DNA of 41,663 nt from Acaryochloris sp. IP29b_bin.148 (GTDB lineage: Bacteria; Cyanobacteriota; Cyanobacteriia; Thermosynechococcales; Thermosynechococcaceae): NCBI RefSeq assembly GCF_028285565.1, contig NZ_JANQOY010000172.1, forward strand, positions 1-41,663, given 5' to 3'. A program made the position numbers and the translations under genes. Below are positions 5,124 through 23,006 of the stretch, piece by piece. The notes below the pieces were generated by a model. That model ran no database searches and had not been told where the DNA came from. It was given only the letters and a program-made list of their open reading frames with translations. Position 1 is the stretch's first letter. Each line of letters opens with the position of its first letter.

Positions 5124-5219
5124 TCACCAGCGCATTTTGGGACGGTCAAGACTCGCCTAACCTGTGTTCTCAGGGCAAGCCTTCTGTATGATCAGAGGGA
5201 ACATGCAGCTGACATCCCC

Positions 5220-7374: not shown

Positions 7375-8421
7375 TCAACTCAGGTATTCAAGAATATACG
7401 GTGCAATGTGATCAACGGGTAGAACTTGCGCTGCGGCCCCTAAATCGATAGCCACCTTCGGCATGCCAAAAACCACGCTACTGGTTTCATCTTGCGCAAT
7501 GGTTAGCCCTCCTGCTTCGGCAATTCGCTGCAGGCCCGCAGAACCATCTTGCCCCATCCCCGTTAGCAGCACACCCAAAACCCCTGCTCCATAGTATTGA
7601 GCCAAGGAGTCAAACATTACCGTAATCGAGGGGCAATGTCGCTGGACAGCAGGTGCCGTCGAGTAATAACAGCGTCCTCTAGCATCCAGCGTCAGATGAT
7701 AGTGATCAGGGGCAAAGTAGACGGTTCCTGGAACCGGCACCTCTCCTGCCACAGCAGCTTTAACATGCAGGGAACACATGGCATCTTGCCAGCTAATCAG
7801 CCCTGGCAAAAAGCCAGCAGAAATATGTTGCGTACAAAAAATAGGAAGGGGAAAATCAGACGGCAGACGGCTGAGAATTTGATGAATGGCCCGTGGCCCA
7901 CCTGTCGAGGCTCCAATCGCCAGCGCTTGCAGATGAGAACAATGTTGGTTGCTTGGAGGAGGTGAGACGCCCGGTACTGAGGGTTCGAGGGGCCGAGTCA
8001 ACACTTTGACGCCAGCCAACACTTTAATTTTTTCTAACAGAGCTCGTCTCTCACCCGCCGACCACTGCTCTGTCTTAGGTGGAGATAGCACGTCGACTGC
8101 CCCCGCCTGCAACACTTGATTAATGGTCTGAGTTTCCGTCGGCTGGACGGTTTGACTGACCACCAAAACGGGGCGTGGAGAAACAGCCAAGAGCTGACGA
8201 ATCAACTCTTGCCCATTCATCTCAGGCATCTGTAGATTGGTGCACACTACATCAGGCTGGAGTTGAGGAATATGTTCTAGGGCAATCACCCCATTACTAG
8301 CCGTCCCAATAACTGAGATGGTGGGGTCGGCACTTAAGACATCAGTGAGCGTTTTTCTAGCGATCGCAGCACTTTCCACAATAAACACAGTAATGGGAGA
8401 TAAGCTCATAGCCACAGCCAT
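7375..8421 (-). CDS. cheB: Chemotaxis protein-glutamate methylesterase CheB with a degenerate receiver domain
   Basis: 348 residues. Residues ~10-140 are a CheY-like receiver and ~165-345 the CheB esterase/deamidase domain. The esterase triad is intact: Ser172 in GASTGG, His199 in CTQHIS, Asp292 in MGQDGSAG. The receiver is degenerate: the acidic pair is Glu16-Ser17 and the phospho-acceptor position is Asn62 (VCTNLQMPEMNG), while Lys116 in LSPPK remains. It should therefore demethylate MCP glutamates but cannot be phosphorylated in the usual way. It is the last gene of the che cluster, behind two intact CheB-like stand-alone receivers. The start could be ATG 8421 or ATG 8409; neither has a strong ribosome binding site. 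Confidence 0.93.
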   Translation of the reverse strand: MAVAMSLSPITVFIVESAAIARKTLTDVLSADPTISVIGTASNGVIALEHIPQLQPDVVCTNLQMPEMNGQELIRQLLAVSPRPVLVVSQTVQPTETQTINQVLQAGAVDVLSPPKTEQWSAGERRALLEKIKVLAGVKVLTRPLEPSVPGVSPPPSNQHCSHLQALAIGASTGGPRAIHQILSRLPSDFPLPIFCTQHISAGFLPGLISWQDAMCSLHVKAAVAGEVPVPGTVYFAPDHYHLTLDARGRCYYSTAPAVQRHCPSITVMFDSLAQYYGAGVLGVLLTGMGQDGSAGLQRIAEAGGLTIAQDETSSVVFGMPKVAIDLGAAAQVLPVDHIAPYILEYLS

Positions 8422-8431
8422 AAAACAACAA

Positions 8432-8459
8432 CATCGCCAGAATCTAGATCCTAGCGATG
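8432..8459 (-). terminator. Terminator-like hairpin between the downstream receiver gene and cheB
   Basis: Six-base perfect arms, CATCGC at 8432-8437 and GCGATG at 8454-8459, enclose 16 nt. Read on the minus strand, the second arm is followed by TTGTTGTTTT and the first is preceded by AAAAAG, as in a weak intrinsic terminator. The cheB ATG follows immediately, so it could reduce cheB expression relative to the upstream genes. Confidence 0.4.
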
Positions 8460-8497
8460 CTTTTTCAACTATCAGCGAGTGAAGACTCGTCAGCCAG

Positions 8498-8914
8498 TTA
8501 GGACTTAACCTTACTTGCTAAAACCTTGATCTTAGTAATCAGAGCGCCTTGTAGCTTCTCGTAATCCATCGCTGTCCCAGAGGTAGGCTTCGGGAAAAAG
8601 TCTAGGGCACCTGCTGACATCAAGTTAAAGATGTTGTCCACATCACCGGGATGGACCGCATTACTCACCACTAGAATGGGACGAGGGAAATCGGACATCA
8701 CCTTCTTTGTGAACTCTAAACCATCCATTTTAGGCATTTGTAAATCAGTGCAGATTACATCTGGCATCGTGTTGGCAATCACATTGAGTCCCTGTTCACC
8801 GTCTTGAGCGGTGCCAACGACATCTACCTCAGGAGAGGAATCAATGAGTCGCTGCATAATCTGTAGGGCAACGGCAGAGTCTTCAACAAGTACAACTTTA
8901 ATGGGAGCGGCCAT
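8498..8914 (-). CDS. Stand-alone CheB-type response regulator receiver (copy 2)
   Basis: 138 residues, a single receiver domain. Acidic pair Glu11-Asp12, phospho-acceptor Asp57 (ICTDLQMPKMDG) and Lys109 (FFPKP) are all present. The helix after the Lys and the ending ITKIKVLA match the receiver plus linker start of the CheB encoded next door (EKIKVLAG) rather than classical CheY. It differs from the copy at 9161-9574 at only about 16 positions. Its ribosome binding site AAGGAG and preceding sequence derive from a duplicated cheA 3' end (8917-8988). Likely role: phosphorylated by CheA, acting as an output or phosphate-sink regulator, or as an in-trans regulator of CheB. Confidence 0.92.
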   Translation of the reverse strand: MAAPIKVVLVEDSAVALQIMQRLIDSSPEVDVVGTAQDGEQGLNVIANTMPDVICTDLQMPKMDGLEFTKKVMSDFPRPILVVSNAVHPGDVDNIFNLMSAGALDFFPKPTSGTAMDYEKLQGALITKIKVLASKVKS

Positions 8915-8916
8915 GA

Positions 8917-8988
8917 TTAAATTAATCTCCTTAGGGCATTTAATAAGAACGTTGGGTCAAAATCACCTTTGGTGATGTCGGTATTGGC
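8917..8988 (-). pseudogene. Duplicated 3' end of cheA (about 23 codons)
   Basis: Read on the minus strand in frame, this stretch gives ANTDITKGDFDP then TFLLNALRRLI and a stop, against ANAYITKGDFDQ then TLLLDTLRRLI at the true cheA end (9577-9648). It sits directly before copy 2 of the receiver, exactly as the real cheA end precedes copy 1, and carries the same AAGGAG. It marks the left side of a tandem duplication of cheA tail plus receiver gene. Confidence 0.85.
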
Positions 8989-9085
8989 TTTACGTGGGCA
9001 AACCCCACTTAGTCGAAGCAGCGGTGATCAGGTGCACTTGCTGTTATATATAGTCTGCCCCCTACAATCTCAGATAGATCTAGAG

Positions 9086-9129
9086 GGAAAGCTGCCGTTC
9101 AAATAGGCAGGGGGCAGCCCGCGCTTTCC
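9086..9129 (-). promoter_or_regulatory. Nested inverted repeats between the two receiver genes
   Basis: An inner stem CTGCC (9092-9096) / GGCAG (9106-9110) lies inside outer arms GGAAAGC (9086-9092) and GCTTTCC (9123-9129). No T-run follows on the minus strand, so it is more likely an mRNA processing/stability element or weak attenuator than a full terminator. Confidence 0.35.
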
Positions 9130-9160
9130 TGCTCAAATATCAGCAGCTTTGGTTGTCGCT

Positions 9161-9574
9161 CTACTTGGCTTTAGCAGCTAGCACCTTAATTTTGGTAATC
9201 AATGCTTCTCTCAATTTTTCGTAGTCCGTCGAGGTTCCCGAAGAAGGTTTTGGGAAAAAGTCTAACGCCCCTGCTGACATTAGATTAAAAATATTATCGA
9301 CATCACTCGGGTGAACGTAGTTACTGACCACTAATACTGGACGAGGGAAATCGGTCATCACCCGTTTTGTGAATTCTAAGCCATCCATTTTAGGCATGGT
9401 CAAATCAGTGCAGATCACATCTGGCATCGTGCGGGCAATCACATCAAGTCCCTGCTCACCGTCTTGGGCAGTACCAACGACATCGACTTCAGAAGAGGAA
9501 TCAATGAGTCGCTGCATAATTTCTAGAGCAACGGCAGAGTCTTCAACAAGTACAACTTTAATGGGAGCAGCCAT
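9161..9574 (-). CDS. Stand-alone CheB-type response regulator receiver (copy 1)
   Basis: 137 residues, a single receiver with Glu11-Asp12, Asp57 (ICTDLTMPKMDG) and Lys109 intact. It starts two bases after the cheA stop, and its ribosome binding site (AAGGAG) lies inside the last cheA codons, so it is translationally linked to cheA. The sequence after Asp57 (RPVLVVSNYVHP..., SAGALDFFPKP, ITKIKVLA) is CheB-like and nearly identical to copy 2. Expected to take phosphate from the CheA P1 histidine. Which of the two copies is the main output cannot be told from sequence. Confidence 0.93.
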   Translation of the reverse strand: MAAPIKVVLVEDSAVALEIMQRLIDSSSEVDVVGTAQDGEQGLDVIARTMPDVICTDLTMPKMDGLEFTKRVMTDFPRPVLVVSNYVHPSDVDNIFNLMSAGALDFFPKPSSGTSTDYEKLREALITKIKVLAAKAK

Positions 9575-9576
9575 AG

Positions 9577-12075
9577 TTAAATTAATCTCCTTAGGGTATC
9601 TAATAGTAAAGTTTGGTCAAAATCACCTTTGGTGATGTAGGCATTAGCGCCAGCATCGGCACCGCGCCGCCGATCTTCTTCCTTCGCCAATGTGGACACG
9701 AGAATAATGGGGAGTTCTTCATACTCATCCTGTTGACGAATGCGGCTAGTCAGTTCTAAGCCTGTGAGATTTGGCATCTCAATGTCAGAAACCACTGCAT
9801 CAAAGGCATCAAGGCTCAGTTTTTCGAAGCCATCCAGACCATCTACAGCAGCTGTGACGTCATAACCGGCCCCTTGCAAAATGCGGCGCACCTGAGTCCG
9901 AATGGGTATAGAGTCTTCAACCAAGAGCACCTTGGGTTTAGTTTGGACGTTTTCTAGATTGACGGATAGAGCACGTTCGCCTCGAACCGCACGAACCAAG
10001 TCTTGAGGATTCAACACCATACAGATTTCACCATTGCCTAAAATGGTGGCTCCCGTCACATTGCGAACCCGATGTAGCAACCTGCTGAGCGGCTTAAGAA
10101 CAATGTCTTGCATCTCTACAAGCTGGTCGACCAACACACCTAAGCGCTCTGTCCCCACCGTCAGCACGACACAAGGGAAATGTGTGGCTACGGTATCCAA
10201 TCGTTGGGGGGGAGACGCAGCAGTGGGAAGTTCGAGTAGGTCAGCTAACCACACCAATGAAAGAGGTTGGTCTTCAAAGGTCACCGTGGGGCTATCGTCA
10301 ACCACATAAATATCCTGGCGCTGAACCTGAATCATGGTATCCACAGCCTCCACCGGAATGGCATAGGGCGTTTGATCAACAGAGACAATCAGGACATTTG
10401 TGGTGGTCAGACTTGCGCCCAACATCAGCCGAAACGTACATCCTTGACCTGGCGTTGAGGAGACTTGGATAGTCCCCTTGAGTCGTTCTACATTAGCGTG
10501 AACCACATCTAAGCCAACCCCGCGACCCGATAGTTCTGTGACCGTGGTCCGGGTCGAAAATCCTGGCTGAAAAATCAAGGATTGAATCTGGTCTGGCGAC
10601 ATCTGGTCGAGTTCTGCTTCACTGTAGAGTCCCCGGCGCAGGGCAGTGCACTTAATTTTGTCTAAATCTAAACCTCGGCCATCATCGACGAGTTCTATAC
10701 AAATACTGCTGCCAACCTGATAGCCTCGCAGCCCTAAGGTGGCTTGATTTGCCTTACCTGCAGCTAATCGTTCAGACAAGGGTTCGATGCCATGATCAAT
10801 GGCATTCCGAATCAGATGGGTGAGCGGAGCCTTCATTTCTTCAAGGATTCGCTTGTCTGCGAGCGTATCTCCCCCTTCTATAACGAAATGAATGTCTTTA
10901 CTCTGATCCTTGGCTAGATCCCGAACTAGGCGGGGAAAAAGACCAAATAAACTAGAGAGAGGTAACATCCGCAGTTTCAAGATCCCTGATTCTAGAGAAT
11001 TAGAAATGGTATCTAGACGGGCGGTGTCAGTCGTTGCAGTACCCCGGAGTTGCCGGATTAAGTCACCAAACTGCTCCAAGTAACCTTGGTGCCGGTGTTG
11101 GGTCTCTTGCAGTGGAGATAGCAGCTCTGGTTCAACTTGTTGAGCTAAATGATCCAGTAGCGTCCGCTGAGTCGCATTTTCGCGAGACCAGTTTTCCCAA
11201 AGATTCAGAATTTGGGTTATATCATCTGTCCGCCGAGCAATACGGAGTTTGGTAACGGCTAATTCACTGGCTTGAGTAATCAGAAGATCCAGCTTGGTCG
11301 CAGCCACTCTGACAGTATCAATCTGATAGGAATCGGTCTCCTTGGGCGTTGCATCTTGGGGCGCTGACGGTTCTGGCGTTTCAGATATAGAGGAATGACC
11401 ATTGGTGCTATGGCCATTCGTTTCAATGGGTAGTGCATGACCATTGGTGCTATGACCATTCGTTTCGGTCAGGAGTGCATGGCTGTCATGACCGTTGGTG
11501 TCATGGCCATTGGCTGCCACGGGGACACCTTGCAATTCTGCCACTAGCTCTGGATCCAGCATGGAGAGATCTAATCCAGCCGGTACATAGGGTTGATTAG
11601 ATGCAAAGGCATCCAGATCCGCAGCGTTCTCTTCGCTGAGATCTGTCTCTGTCTCTACCCCGATTGCGGATTCATCAAATAGAGCGGGGGACGATTCTTC
11701 TTCTCCCGCGAGCTGAGCCAAGGTATGGAAGACACTGACCCCTGAAGCATCACCTGTCACCGCTTCGTGGGCAATTTTACGAATCGCATCGAGTCCCTGA
11801 TAGAGGCGATCGCACAGCTCTGCCGTAACGATACACTCGCCTTTATCCACTGCGATTAGCAGCTCCTCAACATGGTGAGTCAGGGTTTCAGCGTCTTGGA
11901 CTCCCAGCATCCGAGAGTCCCCTTTGAGGGAATGGGCCTCACGGAGCAGTTCCTTTAACCGCTCCGTATCGGCTGAATGTTGTTCCAGGTGGAGTACACC
12001 CGCTTCTAATTTGTCTAAATGGTCTTGACTGGCATCTCGGTAAAGAAGACGCAGTTCCTCATCTTCGATATACAT
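9577..12075 (-). CDS. cheA: Hybrid chemotaxis histidine kinase CheA with C-terminal receiver
   Basis: 832 residues. P1/HPt domain ~1-110 with phospho-His48 (REAHSLKGDSRMLG); a low-complexity linker ~130-250 with six NGH triplets; P3 dimerisation ~255-370; P4 ATPase ~380-550 with N box HLIRNAIDHGIEP, G1 VDDGRGLD and G2 GRGVGLDVV; P5 CheW-like ~555-700; receiver ~712-832 with Glu720-Asp721, Asp764 (VSDIEMPN) and the ITKGDF Lys. No CheY-binding P2 domain is recognisable; the linker stands in its place. The fused receiver is usual in cyanobacterial Pix/Tax kinases. It lies downstream of mcp and directly upstream of the receiver gene at 9574. Confidence 0.95.
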   Translation of the reverse strand: MYIEDEELRLLYRDASQDHLDKLEAGVLHLEQHSADTERLKELLREAHSLKGDSRMLGVQDAETLTHHVEELLIAVDKGECIVTAELCDRLYQGLDAIRKIAHEAVTGDASGVSVFHTLAQLAGEEESSPALFDESAIGVETETDLSEENAADLDAFASNQPYVPAGLDLSMLDPELVAELQGVPVAANGHDTNGHDSHALLTETNGHSTNGHALPIETNGHSTNGHSSISETPEPSAPQDATPKETDSYQIDTVRVAATKLDLLITQASELAVTKLRIARRTDDITQILNLWENWSRENATQRTLLDHLAQQVEPELLSPLQETQHRHQGYLEQFGDLIRQLRGTATTDTARLDTISNSLESGILKLRMLPLSSLFGLFPRLVRDLAKDQSKDIHFVIEGGDTLADKRILEEMKAPLTHLIRNAIDHGIEPLSERLAAGKANQATLGLRGYQVGSSICIELVDDGRGLDLDKIKCTALRRGLYSEAELDQMSPDQIQSLIFQPGFSTRTTVTELSGRGVGLDVVHANVERLKGTIQVSSTPGQGCTFRLMLGASLTTTNVLIVSVDQTPYAIPVEAVDTMIQVQRQDIYVVDDSPTVTFEDQPLSLVWLADLLELPTAASPPQRLDTVATHFPCVVLTVGTERLGVLVDQLVEMQDIVLKPLSRLLHRVRNVTGATILGNGEICMVLNPQDLVRAVRGERALSVNLENVQTKPKVLLVEDSIPIRTQVRRILQGAGYDVTAAVDGLDGFEKLSLDAFDAVVSDIEMPNLTGLELTSRIRQQDEYEELPIILVSTLAKEEDRRRGADAGANAYITKGDFDQTLLLDTLRRLI
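11395..11511 (-). repeat. cheA: In-frame tandem repeat encoding NGH triplets in the CheA linker
   Basis: Three pairs of the form NGHxTNGH (residues 189-196, 206-213, 220-227) are encoded by near-identical DNA repeats. They give a His-rich, probably disordered hinge between P1 and P3. Confidence 0.85.
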
Positions 12076-12121
12076 GGCTGTAATCTGGTCCTTTGGGTGA
12101 TGGGCTCAAGGGCATCAGGAT

Positions 12122-12149
12122 GGGGAGGCAGTAACAGACTCACCTCCCC
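12122..12149 (-). promoter_or_regulatory. Hairpin between mcp and cheA
   Basis: Perfect 7-bp arms GGGGAGG (12122-12128) and CCTCCCC (12143-12149), with a further AGT/ACT inner pairing. The stem is GC-rich with no T-run on the minus strand. It probably acts as an RNA stability or partial termination element between two co-oriented genes 90 bp apart. Confidence 0.45.
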
Positions 12150-12165
12150 CTTCCCTCGCCTGGAA

Positions 12166-13521
12166 TTAAACGGCAACTTGTAACTGATTGGCCACATCCG
12201 TTAGTTCTTCTGTAGACGCTTTCACCTGACTCACCACCGTGGCCGTTTCCTTGGCACCCAGATTAATGGCATTCATAGCTGAAACCGCTTGCTGCACGCC
12301 AACGGCCTGCTGTTTGGAACTGAGCGCGATCTGTTGACTGGCAATGGACACTTCATTAATCGAAGTGGCAATCTCTTGGAACATAGACATGGTTCGTTCT
12401 GCCAACTGAATGCCGACATCAGCCGTTTTGTTGCCCTCGTCGGTCACCATCACCGTGCTGTTAATCGAGCTTTGAATCGTGCCAACGAGCGCTCCAATTT
12501 TATCGGCGGAGTTACGGCTTTGGTCCGCTAATTTCCGAATCTCACCCGCAACCACCGCAAAGCCTTTACCCTGTTCACCAGCCCGTGCCGCTTCCACCGC
12601 TGCGTTCAAGGCCAACATGTTCGTCTGGTCCGCCACGTCAGCCACCAGTTTCGAGATCGTAGAAATCTGATCCGTCTCTTCACTTAACTGCATAATTTTC
12701 TCGGCAATTTCACCCACCTTAGTCCGCAGGCCTGCAATGCCATCCAGGGTCTCTTGCACGGTTTGACGACCTGTTTCAGAGGTGTCAAGAGCTTGTTGGG
12801 CACTTTTAGCGGAGGCATCAGCCTGCTGCGCGGCCTGCAGGGAAGACGCACCCAGTTCCTCAATGGTCGTCGTGGTTTCGTTCACCGAAGCCGTTTGATC
12901 CGAAACAATTCGGCCTTGCTCATCCACAGTCGCTGCAATCTGAGAGGAACTCCCGGTCACCCCGTTAACCGTTTCTTTTAATGCTGTTGTGGCTCGTTGG
13001 GTCATCACAAACGCAAAGGCAACCAGCAGCAATTCTGTAATCAGAATACCGATAATGACCAAGCGCTCTTCTGCAATATCTTCCTGGAAAATATTCTCTG
13101 CCTCATCAACGGCTTCTGTGGTGACTTTGTAAAAGATTTCGTTGTCTTTATTCAGCTGTGTTTTTGCTGCAGGATTCGTTCGGAACTCCAGCACGTCCTG
13201 CTTCAGGATCTCCCAATCCTTCTGTACTTTCTGCATAATGGTCAAAAATTCCCCTTTAGCCTTAGGAAGTCCGACTTGGGGATCTCCTTCGATCAACGCC
13301 TTGATCTGAGCGTCAACTTTGGCTAGCTCTGAGTCACTTTTCTCTCCAGAGACCTCTAGTTCCACGGCGTGCTCAGCATCGCCTCGAAGCAAACCCACCT
13401 CCTTAAGAATTCGGGCATCTTCCACCGGCTTTTGCAGCCCGTAAAGTTCAATTACGGCTGCACCAACACCGACAACTGCCAGGGCTGCAATCGTTAAACG
13501 AATCTGTTGGGTAATTTTCAT
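12166..13521 (-). CDS. Methyl-accepting chemotaxis protein, two membrane segments, no recognisable HAMP
   Basis: 451 residues. TM1 ~7-25, an extracytoplasmic helical region ~26-153, TM2 ~154-173, then the cytoplasmic signalling coiled coil. The CheA/CheW-binding hairpin tip is well conserved ([35 protein letters not shown] region, residues ~298-332). Immediately after TM2 the sequence enters the signalling helix without the Pro and Glu signatures of a HAMP domain. There is no C-terminal NWETF-like tether for CheR/CheB. The external domain looks like a four-helix bundle; its ligand is unknown. It is the only canonical receptor in the cluster, so it is probably the array-forming partner of CheA and CheW. 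Confidence 0.93.
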
Positions 13522-13578
13522 GAAATGAGTCCTTGGTTGAAAATGGGGTCGAAATAGTTAATTAAGTCAAGAGAATCG

Positions 13579-13596
13579 ATGGGGACAAGGCCCCAT
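13579..13596 (-). promoter_or_regulatory. Hairpin between cheW and mcp
   Basis: ATGGGG (13579-13584) and CCCCAT (13591-13596) form a 6-bp stem with a 6-nt loop in the 100-bp gap before mcp. There is no T-run. With the hairpin at 12122-12149, the mcp message is flanked by stems on both sides. Confidence 0.35.
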
Positions 13597-13621
13597 TCAA
13601 CAAACAGCGGTTGGCGAAGGA

Positions 13622-14722
13622 TTATCCTCCTTGATCCACCGCTAACCCGCCTGCCGCAAATAGCGTTGGCAGATCTAGAATGCGCAGGTGCTGATCTCGA
13701 TAGGAGGCAAAACCTTGAAAATAGTCCTGCTGGCTGGTCGCCATGGGTACCTCAGTAATCCCCGTTCGGGGGAGGTACATCACATCCAAAACAGCGTCTA
13801 CCGGAATTCCGGCCACGACATCATCAACTTCCACAACAATGGCCTTAGCCGAGACTGCAGTAGAAGGCGTTTTCTGCAAAGCGGTGCGAATATCCACCAG
13901 GGTCATCACCTCTCCGCGCAGATTGATATTGCCCACAATGTGGGAAGGACAACAGGGAATCGGCGTGACGTGCTGGACATTGATAAACTCACGCACCTTG
14001 TCTAGTTCTAGGGCAAAGTAATCTTCATCCAGGCCAATGACCGCTAAGGGCAGATGATCCGTCTGCTCGGTGTCGGCTAAGGGGGGTCGCAGCTCATCGG
14101 CTCGCTGTCGAAAGAGGGCTTGCTCTGCAGGGGTGATGGCCGCACAATATCGGTCATAAAAATTAGCGCCGCTGTGTCCAGCCACCACATGCGCTTGCCA
14201 TTCTGTTTCTAGAACAATATCTGTCCCTTGGGAGTCCTCTGGGAGGGCATCCAATTCCGCTTCCCAGATCAACATAGCAACCTCATCGGGTTGCCGAATT
14301 AAGGTCTCAGGATTGAGCAGAACCGCCAGTTCACTGCCTACCTTGGCAATACCCGCCACAAACGCAGTGTTGATCTGGTGCGATCGGCCATAGTCGGGGG
14401 CAGATTCTTGGGCAGCGGGGGTCACCGACTGCACATCCAACACCTGTTGAACCACTAACCCCACTTGAATTCCCTGCCACTCCATAACAATGACGGTGTC
14501 ACTGAGCTGGCAAGGTTGTAGGGGTAGCCCTAACCGCAGATCCAAATGCATCACGGGGAGCAGTTTGCCTCGCCAATTGAGGCTGCCCATAATATCCTTG
14601 GGGGCATCTGCAATAAGAGTAAGTTCCGGCAGTTGGAAAATCTCGCGCACCCGATGAGCTTCAACGCCATAGAGTGCATCACTATGGCGAAACATCAGAT
14701 AAGTTTGATTGTCGATCTCCAT
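13622..14722 (-). CDS. cheW: Tandem-domain CheW-like coupling protein
   Basis: 366 residues with two CheW folds: domain 1 at ~5-150 (YGVEAHRVREIFQLPEL..., SLNWRGKLLPVMHLDLRLGL) and domain 2 at ~220-355 (FALELDKVREFINVQHVTP, GNINLRGEVMTLVDIRTAL). They are joined by a stretch including FYDRYCAAITPAEQALFRQRADELRPPL, a linker motif also seen near cyanobacterial CheW domains. It couples receptors to the CheA P5 domain. Two linked copies could bridge neighbouring units in the array or bind two receptor types. It lies 65 bp downstream of the PatA-like gene and 100 bp upstream of mcp. Confidence 0.92.
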   Translation of the reverse strand: MEIDNQTYLMFRHSDALYGVEAHRVREIFQLPELTLIADAPKDIMGSLNWRGKLLPVMHLDLRLGLPLQPCQLSDTVIVMEWQGIQVGLVVQQVLDVQSVTPAAQESAPDYGRSHQINTAFVAGIAKVGSELAVLLNPETLIRQPDEVAMLIWEAELDALPEDSQGTDIVLETEWQAHVVAGHSGANFYDRYCAAITPAEQALFRQRADELRPPLADTEQTDHLPLAVIGLDEDYFALELDKVREFINVQHVTPIPCCPSHIVGNINLRGEVMTLVDIRTALQKTPSTAVSAKAIVVEVDDVVAGIPVDAVLDVMYLPRTGITEVPMATSQQDYFQGFASYRDQHLRILDLPTLFAAGGLAVDQGG

Positions 14723-14787
14723 TGGTTTAAGCTATCCCCGCAAATATCATTAGAGTGAGTAGTCAATCGTGGCCGTGCCATCCCATA

Positions 14788-15942
14788 TCAAGCCTGAACG
14801 GTGACAGGTGCATAGCGATTGAGGATGTCGAGCAGTTTGTCTTGGGTAATGGGTTTGGTGAGATAGTGCGTCGATCCCGCCATTTGTCCCTTCAGTTTGT
14901 TGTATATCCCATCTTTTGCCGTTAACATCACCACGGGTAGATCGTGGAATTTGCTGATGCTACGAATAGTTCGGCACAGTTCTAAACCGTCGATGTCTGG
15001 CATCGTCACATCTAGCAGCACTAGAGACACCTTCTTTTTGTTGAGCAGATTGAGAGCATCAACGGCATTGTTGGCGAGCTCCACCTGATAGCGATCTTGA
15101 ATGGCCCGCTTAATCATGGTCTGCACCACCGGGCTATCATCCACGCTGAGAACAATGGGGCGGCCTGAATTGCCCTTTTGTGAACTTTGCTGATGTGAAC
15201 TATCTGCTACAGCAGAGGCCAACGGGTCAGATTTCTTGCAGGTCAGCCAGCCGGACTTAGCCCATTGGTAATATTGCTGAGCGAGTTCCAACGGATCTTG
15301 CTCAGAAGCCGTAGCAATATCTGCGATGGAGTGCTGCCCATTGACCCACTTGTGCAAATGCTGAGTAACGGTCGGATCGGCAGAGTCGTGATCTAGACTC
15401 CGAGGGACTGCATCAATGGATGGGATGACTGGTGAGAGGGCTTCCCATTGCTGTTGTCGTTGGGTAAGAATAGGTTGTAAATCACACCAGCGAAATCCTG
15501 GCTGAGTGTTTGTATAGCGGAGATCAAAAACAAGTTCAGGATCCTCGATGATGGTTCCACTATAGGGAATGAGTTGCTCTAATGTGCTGAGGAGCCTAGT
15601 TTTCATAAATGCTGCCACATCCGCCCACTGAAAGAGCTGCAGTTGGACCAGCAGCTCAAAATAGTTCTGGATAGAGTTATTCTGAATTCGTTTCTTGGCT
15701 AATCGAAGTGCAGTGTCCATCACCTGGACTTTGTGCTGATGACCTATTGTTGTAGCCAGTTCGGAGGCAGAAACGATGTGTTCTCCTGCATAGGTCATCC
15801 ATCCTTGGTTAAAAACAATCACCCGTTCCCTCATTGGAGTCGATTGAGGAGGTTGAACTTGAACCTTAAGAGCACCACTAAATTTATGGCTCTTAAAGTT
15901 AGCTATCAAATAAGCTAATTGCTTAGATTTGAACTGTTGCAT
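14788..15942 (-). CDS. PatA-type response regulator (N-terminal PATAN/DUF4388-like region plus C-terminal receiver)
   Basis: 384 residues. Residues ~1-130 form the PatA N-terminal domain (FSGALKVQVQ..., VIVFNQGWMTYAG), ~190-240 a helical winged-helix-like region (NGQHSIADIAT), and ~262-384 a receiver with Asp268-Asp269, phospho-acceptor Asp311 (LVLLDVTMPD), Thr341 and Lys363 (YLTKP). The architecture matches PixG/TaxP1-like regulators of cyanobacterial phototaxis clusters, which typically precede the cheY/cheW/mcp genes. That is its position here. Output is thought to be protein-protein, possibly to the pilus machinery; no DNA-binding domain is evident. It follows a 1.1-kb gene-free stretch after cheR. 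Confidence 0.9.
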   Translation of the reverse strand: MQQFKSKQLAYLIANFKSHKFSGALKVQVQPPQSTPMRERVIVFNQGWMTYAGEHIVSASELATTIGHQHKVQVMDTALRLAKKRIQNNSIQNYFELLVQLQLFQWADVAAFMKTRLLSTLEQLIPYSGTIIEDPELVFDLRYTNTQPGFRWCDLQPILTQRQQQWEALSPVIPSIDAVPRSLDHDSADPTVTQHLHKWVNGQHSIADIATASEQDPLELAQQYYQWAKSGWLTCKKSDPLASAVADSSHQQSSQKGNSGRPIVLSVDDSPVVQTMIKRAIQDRYQVELANNAVDALNLLNKKKVSLVLLDVTMPDIDGLELCRTIRSISKFHDLPVVMLTAKDGIYNKLKGQMAGSTHYLTKPITQDKLLDILNRYAPVTVQA

Positions 15943-16535
15943 GCTTGCTTCTCCAAAGGTGAGGGGGACCTTAATTACGATCTGCCATCTAAGCTACCTG
16001 GATTAGCTCGAAGGTCAGACGACATAATTTAGGCTGAGTTTCCTGATTGCTTAAGTAGCATCGAAACTATATATAGATGGTCAAATATGCCTTAACCACA
16101 TTTAGGTCGAAACAATGATTGACCATGTAAATGCAAATAGAATCTTGTCTTTAAGGATGCTCACTTTCTAGTGTTCCCTCAACTGAAAAGGAGTTAGGCA
16201 CAAAATTTAAGAGCTTTATGATTTTTTTTGATTTTAAAATTCTGTAAAAAAGAATTTCACGATGTAAGTAAATGTAAAAATTATTACATCTGACTTAACA
16301 TTTTGGCAATTACAAGGATGTCCCCAGAAGGGAGCTGAGAAGCCTCAAATTATCTCCTAACACGGGTGTGGTTGCGCATTTGAGAAGTGGCAATCGTGCT
16401 ATCTTTCACGTTTTAAGGGATCAAGGCAAAAAGCTTTGGTAGACTGGCATCCCTTGTCCCTATGGATCCTTAAAGATGTATAACTTGTAAAGCTGAATAA
16501 TTGACTAACAGCTATTAAATGGAAAAATACACTAG

Positions 16536-16558
16536 CTCAAAACTTTGCAAGTTTTGAG
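16536..16558. repeat. Perfect 10-bp inverted repeat
   Basis: CTCAAAACTT (16536-16545) and AAGTTTTGAG (16549-16558) are separated by TGC. The symmetry is perfect, with no T-run on either side, so an operator or RNA stem is more likely than an intrinsic terminator. It lies in the spacer upstream of the che operon. Confidence 0.6.
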
Positions 16559-16741
16559 ACTCACAAGCAAGCTCTGTTTATAGACTGACAAAAGTAAATA
16601 CAGAAATATTTGTTTACACTAAAGTGAGTTATTTCTTTACAGTGAATCTCTTTAGAATAGATTTTTATCAGCCTATATCAGCCAAATTAATTCATCGAAG
16701 TCATTTTTTACTTAAACTGAATAATTTACAAAAAACAAAGT

Positions 16742-16779
16742 GAAGAATTAAATTTAATTTTACAAAAATTAAATTCTTC
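16742..16779 (-). terminator. Candidate terminator downstream of cheR
   Basis: Arms GAAGAATT (16742-16749) and AATTCTTC (16772-16779) continue as AATTT/AAATT with one A-A mismatch, giving a 13-pair AT-rich stem with a 10-nt loop. On the minus strand it is followed by ACTTTGTTTTTT, a U-rich tail. The stem is weak because it is AT-rich, and it lies 257 bp past the cheR stop. Confidence 0.35.
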
Positions 16780-17035
16780 GATTCCATTTTTAGCTGTCGG
16801 GAGAGTCCTCTACAGCACAATGTAGTAGCATCCAATAGCAGCTTCTTTGAGAGGAGGCCAACTTTGTCGTGTAGGCAATGATGCTAATTGATGAAAAGGG
16901 GAACGCACCATAAAGAAGAGGGGCATTTATGTTCGTGCTCTGAATGCCGATCCATGTGCTGAATAGAGTTCACCCCCCTAAAAGCTCTGGCTTGTAGCAC
17001 TCGCTTCTATATGTTATTTGCTCAATTTTAAGCTG

Positions 17036-18430
17036 TTATCCAGCCACTGAGGTGAGGGTCAATAGGCGTTGGCGTAGATGCATTAATAAATGATCTGCCC
17101 TGATTTGCCCTTGATAATTGATCCAGGTTTCACCCGGGAGTTGCTGAAGCAGATCTTGAGCGGCACTATACATTTTTGCAGCTCTCACTCCCTGAGCTGC
17201 CTGTTGATAAAGGGTTCCTAGCTCTAAGTAGGCCGGGATTGAAGTGGGCTGTAAATATATAATTTTCTTGTAGATGACTTTAGCCTGTTTGTCATCTCCC
17301 AGCTCTTGAGCGATTTGAGCCTTTAAATAGAGTGGGGCAATTGCTTCTCCATTAATCTCCAATGCAGCCTGGCAATGGTGCATGGCTTGTTCCCAGTCTT
17401 CTTGCTGCACATAAGATTTTGCCAAACGATATTGGGTGCTTAGTCCCGTGGTGGACCTATCTATCGGGGTAGAGGTGGCAGGAGCTGTGGTCTTTATAGG
17501 GGAAACTGGAGAAGCTGCTGAAGGTGTAGGTGGTGGAGCAGGAACCTCGACTTGGCGCTGTTGATAGGCGATTGATCCTGGAAAACTGAGGGTTTGAAAT
17601 TGCTGGAGGTTTTGGGCGTACAGCTCTGCATGGCCTGTGACCAGATAGCCTTCTGGGCGTAGGGCGCGATGAAATTTTGCTAAAACTTGTGCGATCGCAG
17701 CAGCATCAAAATAGATAAAAACATTTCGACAAATAATCAGGTGCAAATTGTTGACCATCGCTTGCGGCAATGGATCTCTCAATAAATTGCCACGGCGAAA
17801 TGTCAACTGCTGCCGGATCGTGTCATGGATTTGCCAACCCGTAGGGACGGGATTGAAGGCCTGGGACTTCAGCTGCGGATCTGTTTGTCGAAAAGACCAG
17901 TTCCGGTAAACTCCCTGCCGTGCCCGATCAATGGCAACAGGATTGAGGTCTGTCCCCAAAATTGAGATATGCCACTGAGACCAATCAGGAATTAATTTTT
18001 GTAGGAGAAGGGCAAGGGAATAGGGTTCTTCACCTGTGGAACATCCTGCACTCCAAAGGTGAAGGGCCAGTTGGGGAATTAAACCTGTCGCATAAGCCAT
18101 CCGTTGCTGTTCAATCAGTTCAGGTAGGATATGCTCCTGCAAAACACAAAATTGGTCGTGATCCCGAAAGAAATAGCTTTCGCCAATGGTAATCAGATCC
18201 AAAAAGTGGCTCCACTCTTGTAGTTCTGCTCCTGAGCAAAGCGTTGAGCCTTGAGATGCTAAAACTAGGCTTTTGTAATACGTATGGGCATCTGGCTGTT
18301 GCAAAGAATGGACTCGGCCAACGATTTCCTTTTCTAAGGTGTCCCAGTCCTGTTCTCGTAACTTTATCCCCGTCTGGGACTGGATCAAATCTAAAAATTG
18401 TTGCTTCAGCGCTGAGTTGATCATGGACAT
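17036..18430 (-). CDS. cheR: CheR-type chemotaxis methyltransferase with C-terminal TPR domain
   Basis: 464 residues from ATG 18430 (MSMINSALKQQF), where the CheR N-terminal helical domain begins. The frame stays open to 18523, but those 31 residues do not look like CheR. Features are the SAM-binding motif LHLWSAGCSTGEEPYSLA (~125-140), the second acidic loop LGTDLNPVAIDRAR, and IICRNVFIYFD. A Pro/Thr-rich linker (~295-330) leads to two or three TPRs (~332-430). CheR methylates MCP glutamates using S-adenosylmethionine; the TPRs may replace the pentapeptide tether, absent from the MCP here. It is divergent from the photoreceptor gene and separated from the rest of the che genes by 1.1 kb. Confidence 0.93.
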   Translation of the reverse strand: MSMINSALKQQFLDLIQSQTGIKLREQDWDTLEKEIVGRVHSLQQPDAHTYYKSLVLASQGSTLCSGAELQEWSHFLDLITIGESYFFRDHDQFCVLQEHILPELIEQQRMAYATGLIPQLALHLWSAGCSTGEEPYSLALLLQKLIPDWSQWHISILGTDLNPVAIDRARQGVYRNWSFRQTDPQLKSQAFNPVPTGWQIHDTIRQQLTFRRGNLLRDPLPQAMVNNLHLIICRNVFIYFDAAAIAQVLAKFHRALRPEGYLVTGHAELYAQNLQQFQTLSFPGSIAYQQRQVEVPAPPPTPSAASPVSPIKTTAPATSTPIDRSTTGLSTQYRLAKSYVQQEDWEQAMHHCQAALEINGEAIAPLYLKAQIAQELGDDKQAKVIYKKIIYLQPTSIPAYLELGTLYQQAAQGVRAAKMYSAAQDLLQQLPGETWINYQGQIRADHLLMHLRQRLLTLTSVAG

Positions 18431-18980
18431 ATCTTTATTTTGTGAAGCGAAACTCAATATCGAAGCACATACCTTTAGAATGCCCAGTGCTAAAGGGCAC
18501 TCATACAAATTCATGTAGATCACATGGCCAGCGTTACCCTCTGCAACCTAGATAAGGATCTGGTAGTAGCGGTGATTGTCTTGGCGAACATCTACGATGG
18601 ATTGGGTCGATTGCCTACAAACGGAAGGCGTGAGGATTTACATCGTAGATTTGAAATATTTATCCAGAAAATGTGCGTGAAGACTCCAACTATACGAATG
18701 TTAGTGGGAGATGTGTATGGCACTTCATTCCCAGCATATTGTTACAGTGTATGCTGAAGTATGGGAATGGCAATATTTCGACCTCGCGACGAAAGATTTT
18801 TAGAGACTACAATTGCTGATCGGTTGTCTTCAAGGCAACAGCAAACTGCTTAAATCTTCAATACCCTGAGATAGGTGTTCAAGGCCTCTTTCATGCTTTT
18901 CACGTAACGATTGTTGTTCGATTGACGAGTTGAGTGACGAAGGGACAGAATCCATTTCTTTCAGCTATGAGGTATGCATC
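18431..18980. other. Divergent intergenic region between cheR and the photoreceptor gene
   Basis: About 550 bp with promoters expected in both directions. No convincing gene was found; a 77-codon frame from 18524 has no ribosome binding site or family resemblance. The notable structure is the large inverted repeat at 18726-18769. Confidence 0.5.
18726..18769. repeat. Two-part inverted repeat in the cheR/photoreceptor intergenic region
   Basis: CATTCCC (18726-18732) plus AGCATA (18733-18738) pair with TATGCT (18750-18755) and GGGAATG (18763-18769). That is 13 contiguous bases on the left arm with a 7-nt bulge on the right. It may be an operator or the 5' leader structure of the photoreceptor mRNA. 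Confidence 0.5.
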
Positions 18981-21416
18981 GTGACGCCACCATCTTTCCC
19001 CCCAACTGAGTCAGAGCAGCTAGAGCCAATCACTTCTGTCCCCTCTTCAAGGGAACCTTTAGGGGCGGAAAGACTAAAGCAGAGCTTGTTACAGCGTGGA
19101 AAAACCATCTCTATCAAAGCAAAATTAATGACTGGGGTCATTGCTTTGAGTATGCTACCCATCTTAGTTGTGGGAACAGGGACCTACTTCACCAGTGAAA
19201 CACTCCACCAACAGCTCAGTACCTCTAGCCCCACCCAGTCAGTCAATGACGCTCAGGTCACGCTCAAGCATCGCATCCCCCTTTTATTGATGGGGACCGG
19301 TGCAATGGCATTGCTGGCGGGGAGCCTTGCCATATGGTTAATCAATCGTGAGTTGCATCCGCTGCTTAAAGCCGCTCAAGACTCTAATCAGCTAGTGAAT
19401 CGGTTATACCGACAAGAGACGGGTTCAGAGATTGAGCGGGAGCATAATGATGCGCTATTGGCCCTAGCCAACAATATCCAACTGATTGATGCTCAAATCC
19501 CCAGCCTTATGCATTCTCAGGAGCATGAAGCCGCCCGAGCAGAACTGTTGATGCAATTTATCGGGCAACTGCACGTAGCATTATCAGCAGAAGACTTATT
19601 AAAGACAGCTGTAGAAGAGGTTCGCCATATCTTGCAAACGGATCGTGTCACCATCTTTGCCTTAAACCCTGATGGTGATGGGACCTTTGTGGCAGAGTCC
19701 GTCGCTCCTGGCTATCCCAAATTACAATGGTCAGCACTCCATGATCCTTGTTTTAGTGAGGGCTATCAGGAGCAGTATCGCCAGGGGCGAGTTCGTGCGA
19801 TCGATAATATCTACAACGTCGGCCTGAACGACTGTCACATCGGCCTATTAGAACGATTTGCCGTTAAAGCCAATATCGTTGCTCCTATTCTCCAGAAAGA
19901 AGAGCTATATGGACTATTAATTGCCCATCAATGTGCCAGGCCCAGAGATTGGAATCCATCTGAAATTGAATTATTTAGACAATTAGCCTCACAAGTGGGG
20001 TATGCCTTAGACCAGACTCGAACCATGAGTCAGCTGGACGGTCAAGTCAATCAATTGCGGTTGCTAATGCAACTTACACAGCAGATCCGAGGGTCATTAC
20101 AGACAGAAGAGATCCTAACCACCACCGTCCAAGAGAGTCGAAAAGTCCTCAGAGCAGATCGCGTTATTGTCTATAGCATTGATGAACATGGCTATGGAAC
20201 CGTTGCCGCAGAGGCAACGCAACCCGGCATTCCCAAAATGCTGTGGGCCAAAATTTCGGATCCCTGTTTTGCCGAAGGCTATATTGAAAAATATCGGGCT
20301 GGACGGGTTCAAGCGCTTAGTAATGTCCATGAGGCGGGCTTAACGGATTGTCATCTGCAACAGCTCAAAACCTATGGTGTGTATGCCAATTTGGTGGTTC
20401 CTATTCTCACAGGAGAAGATTTATTTGGCTTACTGATTGCCCATCAATGTTCTGGCCCTAGATCGTGGCAGCCTACTGAAATAGACTTATTCACTCAAAT
20501 TGGTACCCAAGTCGGCTATGCCTTGGCGCAAGCCAACGTCCTGACGCAAACAGAGCAGGCTTGGAATACAAATATCACCCTGTCCCATACCGACAGTCAG
20601 CAACTGCAGAGGCTGCACAGTCAACTTTTGGAGTATCTCCAGGTTAGTCAACCCACCATTAGCACTTGGGTACAGGAGACCCGCCAACATTTAGAAACCG
20701 CCCAATCCGTCTATACGCAGTTACAAACCCTTATCGACCTGGCTCAAAACGTTAGTGCGAGCACACGACAAGTCCAATCTCAGAGTCACCAGCTTCTGGC
20801 GCAAGTGGACCGGGCGCAAGATCACCTCCATCAATATGGTGGTCCCCACCATCCAATCCAAACAACGGCTCAGGCTGCCGTTACTCAGCTTCAGCAATTA
20901 GAGATTTCGATACAGCAGTTGGCTCGCATGCGAACATTGGTCAGCCAATTATCCTCCCAAATTCATCTGCAGGCGATGAATATCGCTGCTAAGGCCACGC
21001 AAGTTCCCCCTCCTGATTTGTCCAGTGTGGCCATAAATATGCGCAATGTTGCACAAAAGCTGGATGACAATATGATCCAAATGAAACCGTTAATGGAGTC
21101 CTTGCAGAGTGGCATCCAACAGGAAACCGCCCTTTTAGCCCCTCTGGTGACGGGGGTGGGGCGTGATTCTCCGTCCCTTATTTCTGAACAGCTATCCGCT
21201 AGCCTTGATGCAGCAGTGACTCAACTCAACACACAGGCTGTAGATATCACTCAGTGGATGGGTGAACATATCCAAACCTCTACCGATGCCAGTCGTCAGG
21301 CTTTTACATTAACTCAGGTTTTACAACGTCTGTTGACGCAAGCCCAAGCGATGCAAACCTTGATTCAGGACCTAGAGACAATTGTTGCGACTCAACCGAC
21401 AGAACCCAACACCTGA
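18981..21416 (+). CDS. Membrane photoreceptor with two DXCF-type cyanobacteriochrome GAF domains and a degenerate MCP-like C-terminus (PixJ/TaxD1-like)
   Basis: 811 residues from GTG 18981, preferred because GAGG lies 8 nt upstream; a TTG at 18930 would add 17 residues. TM1 ~48-69 and TM2 ~99-120 flank a short external loop. GAF1 (~205-345) has DPCF Cys257 and canonical DCH Cys285; GAF2 (~375-515) has DPCF Cys429 and Cys457. Each pair is 28 residues apart, as in the blue/green phototaxis receptor TePixJ, so both GAFs should bind a phycobilin through two Cys. Residues ~525-811 are Gln-rich coiled coil aligning only loosely with an MCP signalling domain: the hairpin tip consensus is lost (MNIAAKATQVPPPDLSS). 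Likely a light sensor for the neighbouring che genes, or an accessory receptor. Confidence 0.88.
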   Translation: MTPPSFPPTESEQLEPITSVPSSREPLGAERLKQSLLQRGKTISIKAKLMTGVIALSMLPILVVGTGTYFTSETLHQQLSTSSPTQSVNDAQVTLKHRIPLLLMGTGAMALLAGSLAIWLINRELHPLLKAAQDSNQLVNRLYRQETGSEIEREHNDALLALANNIQLIDAQIPSLMHSQEHEAARAELLMQFIGQLHVALSAEDLLKTAVEEVRHILQTDRVTIFALNPDGDGTFVAESVAPGYPKLQWSALHDPCFSEGYQEQYRQGRVRAIDNIYNVGLNDCHIGLLERFAVKANIVAPILQKEELYGLLIAHQCARPRDWNPSEIELFRQLASQVGYALDQTRTMSQLDGQVNQLRLLMQLTQQIRGSLQTEEILTTTVQESRKVLRADRVIVYSIDEHGYGTVAAEATQPGIPKMLWAKISDPCFAEGYIEKYRAGRVQALSNVHEAGLTDCHLQQLKTYGVYANLVVPILTGEDLFGLLIAHQCSGPRSWQPTEIDLFTQIGTQVGYALAQANVLTQTEQAWNTNITLSHTDSQQLQRLHSQLLEYLQVSQPTISTWVQETRQHLETAQSVYTQLQTLIDLAQNVSASTRQVQSQSHQLLAQVDRAQDHLHQYGGPHHPIQTTAQAAVTQLQQLEISIQQLARMRTLVSQLSSQIHLQAMNIAAKATQVPPPDLSSVAINMRNVAQKLDDNMIQMKPLMESLQSGIQQETALLAPLVTGVGRDSPSLISEQLSASLDAAVTQLNTQAVDITQWMGEHIQTSTDASRQAFTLTQVLQRLLTQAQAMQTLIQDLETIVATQPTEPNT

Positions 21417-21438
21417 TTCTCGGAAACGAAGATCCATA

Positions 21439-21475
21439 GCAAAGCGTTAGTTCCACAGGCAAAGCGTTAGTTCCA
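21439..21475. repeat. 17-bp direct repeat, two copies
   Basis: GCAAAGCGTTAGTTCCA occurs at 21439-21455 and again at 21459-21475, with a 20-bp period. It lies in the 107-bp gap between the convergent ends of the photoreceptor and SDR genes. Confidence 0.85.
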
Positions 21476-21523
21476 AATGTCCTCAGTGCTTGAGAATGGG
21501 GCAACGGGTGAGAATCTCTCAGG

Positions 21524-22288
21524 CTACAAACCCGGTGTGGTTTGAGCAAAGAGGGCTGCAAAATCAGATGTGGGAGGAGCTTCTCCTTCCTCGCGAGTCA
21601 CCATGTCAAAGGCTTTGTTTTGGGCATTCGGTTCCCGTAGTGCCTGAATAACCACTTCAGCCACATCGGCACGGGGCAGCTTGTGAGGCATCTTGCGCTC
21701 TGGGATAAAGAAAGAGTCGTCTTTGCCCACGATAATTTCGCGTTTTCCCCCAGGCTCATCAATCAATCCACCTGCACGAACGATGGTGTAGGTGATACCC
21801 GAGTCAATCAGATACTGTTCTGCTCGCCGTTTCCAAATCAGGATATTGCCTCCGCCCATGGTATTGAGATAGTGATTCTCATTGGTGCCTCCCATGGAGC
21901 CGACGTGGACAATCTGTTTGACCCCGGCTGCCGCTGCCGCATCAATCAAATTTTTATGACCGTTATAGTCAATATCTTCTGGATAGGCTCCCGCTGGAAA
22001 CTCAAACTCGGGGCGTTGGCCCGGTTGAGGAGGTCCTTTCATCACGGGAGCAGAACTCGATAGGATCACCACCGCATCGCATCCTGCGATCGCCCGATCA
22101 ATACTGGCTCGGTCGGTCACATCACCCACGACCATCCCCGCTAACGATCCGAGCTTTTCCTTGGCTTTCGCTTCGGAGCGGACAAAGCTGATGACGTCGA
22201 ATTCATCGGTGCGATCGCGTAATTTATGCACCACAATCGAGCCCGTTTGTCCTGTGGCTCCAGAAACCAATACCTTCTTGATTGCCAT
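21524..22288 (-). CDS. Atypical short-chain dehydrogenase/reductase-like NAD(P)-binding protein (SDR5 / NmrA-like)
   Basis: 254 residues from ATG 22288, where the Rossmann fold begins (KKVLVSGATGQTGSIV). The frame extends to an ATG at 22390, adding a lysine-rich 34-residue segment without a clear ribosome binding site, so the start is uncertain. Family features are GDVTDRASIDRAI, HVGSMGGTNENHYLN, the KRRAEQYLIDSGITYTIVRAGGL block and a C-terminal RADVAEVVIQAL. It matches cyanobacterial/plant SDRs of the At5g02240 type, thought to bind NADP(H); the substrate is unknown. It converges on the photoreceptor gene and is divergent from the PH-domain gene at 22497. Confidence 0.88.
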   Translation of the reverse strand: MAIKKVLVSGATGQTGSIVVHKLRDRTDEFDVISFVRSEAKAKEKLGSLAGMVVGDVTDRASIDRAIAGCDAVVILSSSAPVMKGPPQPGQRPEFEFPAGAYPEDIDYNGHKNLIDAAAAAGVKQIVHVGSMGGTNENHYLNTMGGGNILIWKRRAEQYLIDSGITYTIVRAGGLIDEPGGKREIIVGKDDSFFIPERKMPHKLPRADVAEVVIQALREPNAQNKAFDMVTREEGEAPPTSDFAALFAQTTPGL

Positions 22289-22496
22289 AGCGTTTGCATA
22301 CTGATTAGGGTCTTCTTTCTTGACTTTATCAGACTTGATTTTCTTTGAAAGCAGAATCCTGATTTGTTCTTCATCGATTGACCGTATCATCAGTGATAAT
22401 CAGGAGTTTGGCTATAATCGGGGCATAGGGCACCCTGTTTTTTAGGTATTAGATTAAGTTTAGGTTTACGAGAATGACTCGGTAGAGGGAAAAGCC

Positions 22497-23006
22497 ATGG
22501 ATGTCGCGACTACAACCTACTCAGCCCCCTGGGGAATGTCGCTCAAGATCATCTCAAGTGTAACCAGCGTGTTATTAATTGGGATCGCTTTAATCGGTCT
22601 GTTGACGGGGCCAAAAGGCAACTGGATTTGGATCCTAAGTATGGTCATCATTCCGCTAGGAATCTTGATAGTGACCGCTCTCTTTACCGTGCGCGGATAT
22701 GTTCTCACACCAGATGCTTTGCTGGTGAAACGCCTGGTCTGGACAACGCCAATTCCATTGCAAGAACTAACGACCGTCGAAGCCGACTCCAATGCCATGG
22801 AGGGTTCGATTAAAACCTTTGGCAATGGCGGGCTGTTTAGTTTTTCAGGGTCCTTTCGTAACAAACGCCTGGGGCCTTATCGGGCGTTAGCTACAGATAT
22901 ACGTCATTGTGTGGTCCTCAAGTTCGATCGCAAAGCGATTGTGATTACCCCAGAGAAACCGCTGGCCTTTGTCAATCAGTTAAAGGCTATGAAAGGCATG
23001 GAGTAA
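22497..23006 (+). CDS. Membrane-anchored bacterial PH-domain protein
   Basis: 169 residues. Two hydrophobic segments (~17-36 and ~43-65) form a hairpin anchor. The cytoplasmic part starts VRGYVLTPDALLVKRLVWTTPIPLQELTTVE, the repeated-strand pattern of bacterial PH domains (bPH_5-like), and ends with VVLKFDRKAIVITPEKPLAFVNQL. A GAGGGA sequence lies upstream of the ATG. Function is not known; such domains often mediate membrane or protein contacts. Its stop is 15 bp from the convergent DUF790 gene. Confidence 0.75.
   Translation: MDVATTTYSAPWGMSLKIISSVTSVLLIGIALIGLLTGPKGNWIWILSMVIIPLGILIVTALFTVRGYVLTPDALLVKRLVWTTPIPLQELTTVEADSNAMEGSIKTFGNGGLFSFSGSFRNKRLGPYRALATDIRHCVVLKFDRKAIVITPEKPLAFVNQLKAMKGME

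Follow-up and report, generated by a model that had tools for sequence, protein, structure and literature searches.

In this study, we identified a PixJ-like photoreceptor, apparently rebuilt away from the chemotaxis kinase CheA, in a 41,663-nucleotide stretch of Acaryochloris sp. IP29b_bin.148 (hereafter, the window). Its two GAF domains each carry a complete cysteine pair, and its C-terminal tail derives from the hairpin of methyl-accepting chemotaxis proteins (MCPs). Since this tail seems to lack the part that would drive the chemotaxis kinase, the receptor probably signals by another route. We give about an even chance to the reading that the protein is a plasma-membrane DXCF photoreceptor whose MCP-derived output tail no longer controls a CheA kinase; the loss of CheA control is what we infer from sequence comparison. 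The features are listed in Table 1.

Table 1 Positions of the receptor, its domains and the neighbouring che cluster in the window
Feature	Positions	Strand	Basis
che cluster: CheB, two CheB-like receivers, hybrid CheA, canonical MCP, CheW, receiver-domain regulator, CheR-TPR	7375..18523	-	Pfam, synteny
Photoreceptor gene, 811 aa, GTG start	18981..21416	+	Open frame, start common to relatives
Two predicted TM helices, about aa 49-67 and 101-121, short loop between	19125..19343	+	Hydropathy peaks 1.97 and 1.86
GAF1, predicted cyanobacteriochrome, DPCF (C257) and CH (C285)	19563..20030	+	PDB matches, dN/dS, GAF tree
GAF2, predicted cyanobacteriochrome, DPCF (C429) and CH (C457)	20079..20546	+	PDB matches, alignment, tree
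Helical hairpin, MCP-derived by alignment, without preceding HAMP, interrupted helices	20529..21389	+	Alignment, AF2 model, MCPsignal 12.1 bits
Degenerate hairpin tip SQLSSQIHLQAMNIAAKATQVPPPDLSSVAINMRNVAQKLD	20943..21065	+	Alignment

The receptor gene and its two GAF domains

Of seven genomes of the genus, five contain the receptor in full length, with six copies in all, and those outside the window are 71% (G004), 66% and 65% (both in G001), 65% (G005) and 56% (G003) identical to it. GTG is the aligned start codon in four copies and ATG in the remaining two, and GAGG precedes the start codon in five of the six; an alternative TTG, 51 bases 5' of the GTG, is also in frame and open. All six frames are open and read as 802–841 aa; a lone TAA was flagged in the matches in G001:C6 and G003, and by its coordinates it closes the open frame. 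Intact frames and low dN/dS rule out a pseudogene. Pfam at E 0.001 finds GAF families on two stretches of the receptor and no other family. An antisense gene was rejected, the sole minus-strand ORF of at least 80 aa that overlaps the receptor being 21304–21561 (85 aa) and the one minus frame translated over it being full of stops. A phage origin was also rejected (two weak PHROGs matches only, the better one, at E 8e-4, being to a tail protein over the coiled coil), as was a plasmid orthologue (15 plasmid records match, none with a single place covering 80%). For structured RNA, positions 15900–22500 gave no Rfam match at gathering scores.

The cysteines of the receptor are residues 257, 285, 318, 429, 457 and 490, and the D-x-C...C-H pattern with 28 residues between the cysteines occurs twice, once in each GAF domain. 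None of 20,000 shuffles of the protein reproduced this double-Cys pattern, by which a chance motif was excluded, and it is absent from the 43 further ORFs of 100 aa or more in the window. The whole receptor matches the solved structure 3vv4 at E 8e-40, with the best stretch on GAF2, and GAF1 alone matches it at E 2e-36; 3vv4 and 4fof, labelled methyl-accepting chemotaxis protein in the match table, are presumably TePixJ. Each GAF domain has the solved-structure match together with both cysteines by which a DXCF cyanobacteriochrome is recognized. The sequence-only reading, which had assigned two complete cysteine pairs 28 residues apart to cyanobacteriochrome GAFs and had named a placement outside cyanobacteriochromes as the result that would speak against it, is borne out on these points. 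From their motifs, both domains are predicted to be DXCF-type blue/green sensors, and both would bind bilin; a PcyA-family reductase gene is present in the same genome. The GAF1 pair is kept in all six copies, with EPCF instead of DPCF in G004, and the GAF2 pair in five, the G003 copy having neither GAF2 cysteine.

The GAF tree places window GAF1 together with the first GAFs of multi-GAF sister receptors, described below (support 100/99), and GAF2 with the single GAF of Acaryochloris paralogues (92/84). The latter group sits in a weaker one with the second and third GAFs of G009 and G016 (80/75), and the Thermosynechococcus-type and G017 GAFs are set apart (100/100). Because of these groupings, an ancestor with at least GAF1 and GAF2 is likely, from which the one-GAF paralogue likely lost GAF1; in G009, G016 and G405, the third GAF seems to be a local copy of GAF2. 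A pair of DXCF GAFs is unusual without being unique, because three of the seven distinct multi-GAF sisters have at least two DXCF cysteines, with three full pairs in both G009 and G405 and three DXCF cysteines, two of them with CY for CH, in G016. The other four, G008 and three Hydrococcus-type receptors, have a single DXCF cysteine. The L080 receptor combines two full pairs with a normal tip, and the G405 receptor (L118:7048-9909) combines three complete pairs with the tip variant FHAMK and has no adjoining partner gene.

The available text of PMC5812497 describes PixJ1 (TaxD1) of Synechocystis as a blue/green receptor of the tax1 cluster with two TM helices, two GAFs and a C-terminal MCP module, the same plan as that of the window receptor. 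It places the bilin of PixJ1 in the second GAF only, whereas the window receptor has cysteine pairs in both. The earlier claim that PixJ/TaxD1 receptors usually have one such GAF agrees with PixJ1 as described there. The same text describes PtxD (NpF2164) of Nostoc punctiforme as an MCP-type receptor with several bilin GAFs, two of which use a second cysteine. Unlike PixJ1, the window receptor has no HAMP before its hairpin, a degenerate tip and no conserved che operon. The Thermosynechococcus-type receptors, our comparison for TePixJ, have one DXCF GAF and a normal tip. The window protein is a predicted two-sensor photoreceptor whose output is accessible to simple assays.

The tail and its tip

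The MCP hairpin tip is among the most conserved protein surfaces in bacteria. MCPsignal (PF00015, curated cut-off 34.6 bits) gives no match to the whole receptor at E 0.001, and the last 288 residues alone score 12.1 bits (E 0.18, positions 16–157 of the 172-position profile). The other five copies score 29.9 (G004, E 6e-7), 11.3, 15.7, 11.0 and 12.1 bits, and none of the six passes the cut-off. Because its score is still 29.9 bits, the G004 hairpin appears to be less altered than those of the other copies. The tail aligns as an MCP hairpin whose tip, QIHLQAMNIAAKATQ--VPPPDLSSVAINMRNVAQ, differs from that of the normal receptor G017; where ordinary MCPs have the CheA/CheW contact tip, it reads NIAAKATQ--VPPPDLSSVA. 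The E and R of ordinary MCP tips, which we take to be CheA/CheW contact positions, are K and Q in all six copies. The loss of the MCP tip consensus claimed in the sequence-only reading is thus confirmed by score and alignment, and the MCPsignal search that it had proposed as a check gave neither a strong match nor a normal tip. The coiled coil claimed for the C-terminus stands in that the tail is helical; it is not featureless, since the alignment reveals a degenerate MCP hairpin. The G004 E value, the alignment and the nesting among tails over the cut-off (see below) argue for descent of the tail from an MCP hairpin, and a generic coiled coil unrelated to MCPs was ruled out by the alignment and the G004 score.

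A 54-residue HAMP-like stretch before the G017 hairpin is missing in 14 LQAMN-type alignment rows, a reading made by eye against this one normal receptor. Helix-breaking prolines in the tail number 5–12 in the window clade, 1–7 in the sisters and 0–2 in ten other MCP rows; the window tail has 11, two of them beyond the last modelled helix. For both this count and the tail tree, the G003 row was shortened to 230 aa, and three of five tried further canonical loci were used (L079 and L081 were dropped for lack of the QTN motif sought). In an AF2 model of the tail built from 12 sequences, which is only fair (pLDDT 74, pTM 0.58), both arms are broken about 50 residues from the tip, at 620–624 and 724–735, and the turn lies at 673–680 (TQVPPPDL). 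The best Foldseek matches of this model are designed four-helix bundles, and the best 50 listed all belong to other helical families, an MCP cytoplasmic hairpin being absent from them. Because of the designed bundles, the tail may fold back on itself, a hint from AF2 modelling without a control MCP.

Sister receptors and their CheA-like partner

The tail tree contains an LQAMN-type clade of 20 rows (19 distinct, the L107 and G006 rows being the same sequence) with a support of 100/100, apart from ten other MCP tails; G405, with its FHAMK tip, belongs to this clade. The six window-type tails are nested in it on a stem of 1.95 changes per column. The window receptor is thus a relative of the LQAMN receptors that stands by itself and has a more strongly changed tip. 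The spelling of the motif varies: LQAKN in G004, LQVMN in one G001 copy and LQAMT in G003. The LQAMN-tip receptors (on contig C68 of the same genome, in other Acaryochloris and in Hydrococcus) are the nearest relatives of both the tail and the GAFs and likewise lack HAMP. All seven that were tested exceed the MCPsignal cut-off (51.0, 74.0, 55.4, 46.8, 60.2, 65.6 and 67.7 bits), and most lie between Ser/Thr kinase-GUN4 and Hpt-CheW-receiver genes, whereas the window receptor stands alone: none of the six window-type loci has an adjoining kinase-less CheA-like gene.

A scan of the named genome collection with one tip spelling, which possibly left out the genome of the window, gave 12 loci. These are Acaryochloris-type and Hydrococcus records, one labelled Thermosynechococcus, one uncultured cyanobacterium, one Gracilibacteria and a Rhodopseudomonas match that is weak. 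A profile search of 386 genomes of the phylum found mostly ordinary MCPs; matches above 200 bits occurred only in the genome of the window and G405, and the next scored 151. The locus titled Candidatus Gracilibacteria (L112) has the gene order of the Hydrococcus records, groups with them in both trees and is probably a mislabelled or mixed bin.

The C68 paralogue is a one-GAF receptor of 729 aa that scores 51.0 bits with MCPsignal. A Ser/Thr kinase fused to GUN4 precedes it, and the protein encoded after it (618 aa) has Hpt, CheW and receiver domains but lacks a HATPase. Of 12 distinct loci that could be assessed, 11 have the sister receptor directly upstream of such a kinase-less CheA-like gene: in the genome of the window, G001, G002, G003, G004, G006, G009, G016 and three Hydrococcus-type records. 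The exception is G405, and the G008 contig ends at this point. The kinase-GUN4 gene is on the opposite side at 11 of 13 loci, as a 270-aa piece in G006; the G009 contig ends on that side, and G405 has none. The pairs L106/L067, L107/G006, L108/G003, L109/L066, L113/L062, L114/L061 and L115/L063 were judged by length, position or sequence to be the same contigs and were counted once. With Pfam at E up to 0.01 or 0.1, Hpt was found in eight of the 11 partners, CheW in nine and a receiver in ten (not in G016), and HATPase or H-kinase_dim in none; the domains unseen in G001 and G004 were assigned through 64–67% identity to the C68 copy. At the position of the phospho-histidine of the first Hpt, assessed by eye, H is present in two of the 11 and Y, Q, Y, N, A, E, K, K and R in the others. 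An AF2 model of the G003 partner (pLDDT 71, pTM 0.33) consists of two helical segments, a CheW portion rich in beta strands and a receiver and, on our reading of its secondary structure, would leave no room for a kinase domain; the best 50 Foldseek matches listed are all receiver-domain structures.

The trio of Ser/Thr kinase-GUN4, LQAMN-tip receptor and CheA-like protein without P3/P4 is conserved at L019:5927-11834 (C68) and at L065, L066, L067, L107, L108, L110, L111, L112 and L113, with the phospho-histidine mostly missing, and is possibly more interesting than the window receptor itself. None of the titles listed by the literature searches describes it. Searches on degenerate tips, dead CheA, GUN4-cyanobacteriochrome-kinase and Acaryochloris phototaxis gave nothing of use, and none of the literature found joined cyanobacteriochrome GAF, Acaryochloris marina and methyl-accepting chemotaxis. 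According to the available text of a CheA survey (PMC10782961), every CheA sequence that it covers has P1, P3, P4 and P5. CheA3 of Rhodobacter sphaeroides, as described there, has Hpt and CheW around a non-functional kinase region, like the sister partner; the kinase comes from CheA4, with which CheA3 cooperates, and CheA3 is phosphorylated on its first Hpt (PMC10782961). In contrast to CheA3, the sister partner has no P3/P4, and the histidine at the aligned position is found in only two of 11. The partner gene is present in four of the five genomes with a window-type receptor. It was not found in G005, which also gives no match to the peptidase that flanks the partner gene in other genomes (93–98% identical in G004 and G001), and the absence may therefore be a gap in this 87% complete assembly.

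Under the preferred reading of an MCP-derived tail that no longer controls CheA, bilin isomerization in GAF1 and GAF2 would shift the helices that link the GAFs to the tail. In turn, the broken hairpin, which may form a compact four-helix bundle, would expose or hide a docking surface for a non-kinase partner. The likeliest class of partner would be the CheW-receiver protein without a kinase domain encoded beside the sister receptors, a guess from the gene order of relatives. We also consider, tentatively, a wider possibility: that the whole lineage is free of CheA, the LQAMN receptors signalling through a dead CheA (CheW and receiver) and the Ser/Thr kinase-GUN4, and the window receptor being a twin-sensor offshoot that stands alone and has converted its hairpin into a novel helical output bundle. 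The light receptors form a graded series in nature: some have a normal tip, others a modified tip and a neighbouring CheA-like protein without a kinase domain, and the window type a degenerate tip whose dN/dS is low. They make testable the idea of a chemoreceptor rewired to signal without a histidine kinase. The window receptor is also a lead to a putative chemosensory module free of the kinase, seen here in few lineages.

Selection on the tail and the neighbouring che cluster

The six copies seem to evolve under purifying selection, with GAF1 under the tightest constraint of all domains (dN/dS 0.04–0.06, computable in four of six comparisons); the tip gives 0.12–0.22 (five of six) and the tip with its arms 0.10–0.27 where computable, with dS saturated in several comparisons. 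The hairpin arms and N-terminus evolve faster than the GAFs, amino acid identity over the six comparisons being 0.42–0.71 in the C-terminal arm versus 0.74–0.87 in GAF1. This difference, the long stem branch and the low MCPsignal scores would suit a relic tail, in which the GAF part alone matters (serving, for example, as a light sink in the membrane or as a dimer) and the hairpin is a tolerated leftover in the course of being lost. However, the frames open in all six copies, the low ratios in tip and arms and the LSSQ, LQ and MK blocks kept in all six make such a relic unlikely.

The che cluster beside the receptor is complete, and its MCP has a normal tip. The sequence-only reading had suggested that the receptor signals through this canonical MCP or CheW, and a related explanation is that it joins mixed arrays with them and tunes the CheA of the cluster. 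The two are adjacent in the genome of the window, and the genomes G001, G004 and G005 each contain a related CheA (62–63% identity) as well as the receptor. Divergent placement of receptor and cluster is found at only one of the six loci, however, and no homologue of the window che cluster was found around the other five copies (15.7–20 kb each). The best match to the window CheA in G003, which is 92% complete and has the receptor, is only 34% identical, and the tip residues and helix continuity are lost. Linkage is not conserved and lends no support to cooperation; the cluster is probably not the cognate partner, and mixed arrays are distinctly doubtful. The window juxtaposes two separate loci, by rearrangement or possibly misassembly, because the matching che cluster of G001 lies on another contig with its own conserved neighbours (homologues of window genes 4731–6140, 62–92% identity). 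Neighbours that other copies of the receptor have in common with the window are a NAD-binding protein in G004 and G001:C2 and two further window genes in G004, where TsaE, DUF2062 and similar genes lie on the left side. G016 has a che cluster with CheR and CheB and a three-GAF sister-type receptor, none of the window type; its CheA is nearest to that of the window (75% over residues 224–832, versus 62–63% in the genus).

If its tip, though divergent, still worked, the protein could be an ordinary phototaxis receptor of the PixJ type. This would explain the shared plan (TM, GAFs and hairpin), the 29.9 bits of G004 and the several CheA-type genes in these genomes, but it is just as improbable as mixed arrays, given the missing HAMP, the E/R to K/Q changes in all six tips and the absence of window che-cluster homologues around five of six copies, the receptor being outside any conserved tax/pix operon with CheA and CheW.

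At 18524–18980, the che cluster meets the receptor locus, from which it is separate in related genomes. Two adjacent stand-alone CheB-type receiver genes in the che cluster (8498–8914 and 9161–9574) share 120 of 137 residues, a tandem duplication. On contig C46 of the same genome (L020:3280-7413), a tandem pair of MCP-like proteins that score weakly with MCPsignal (49.3 and 25.2 bits) lies beside a 1038-aa CheA; both have altered tips of their own, with a 9-residue insertion.
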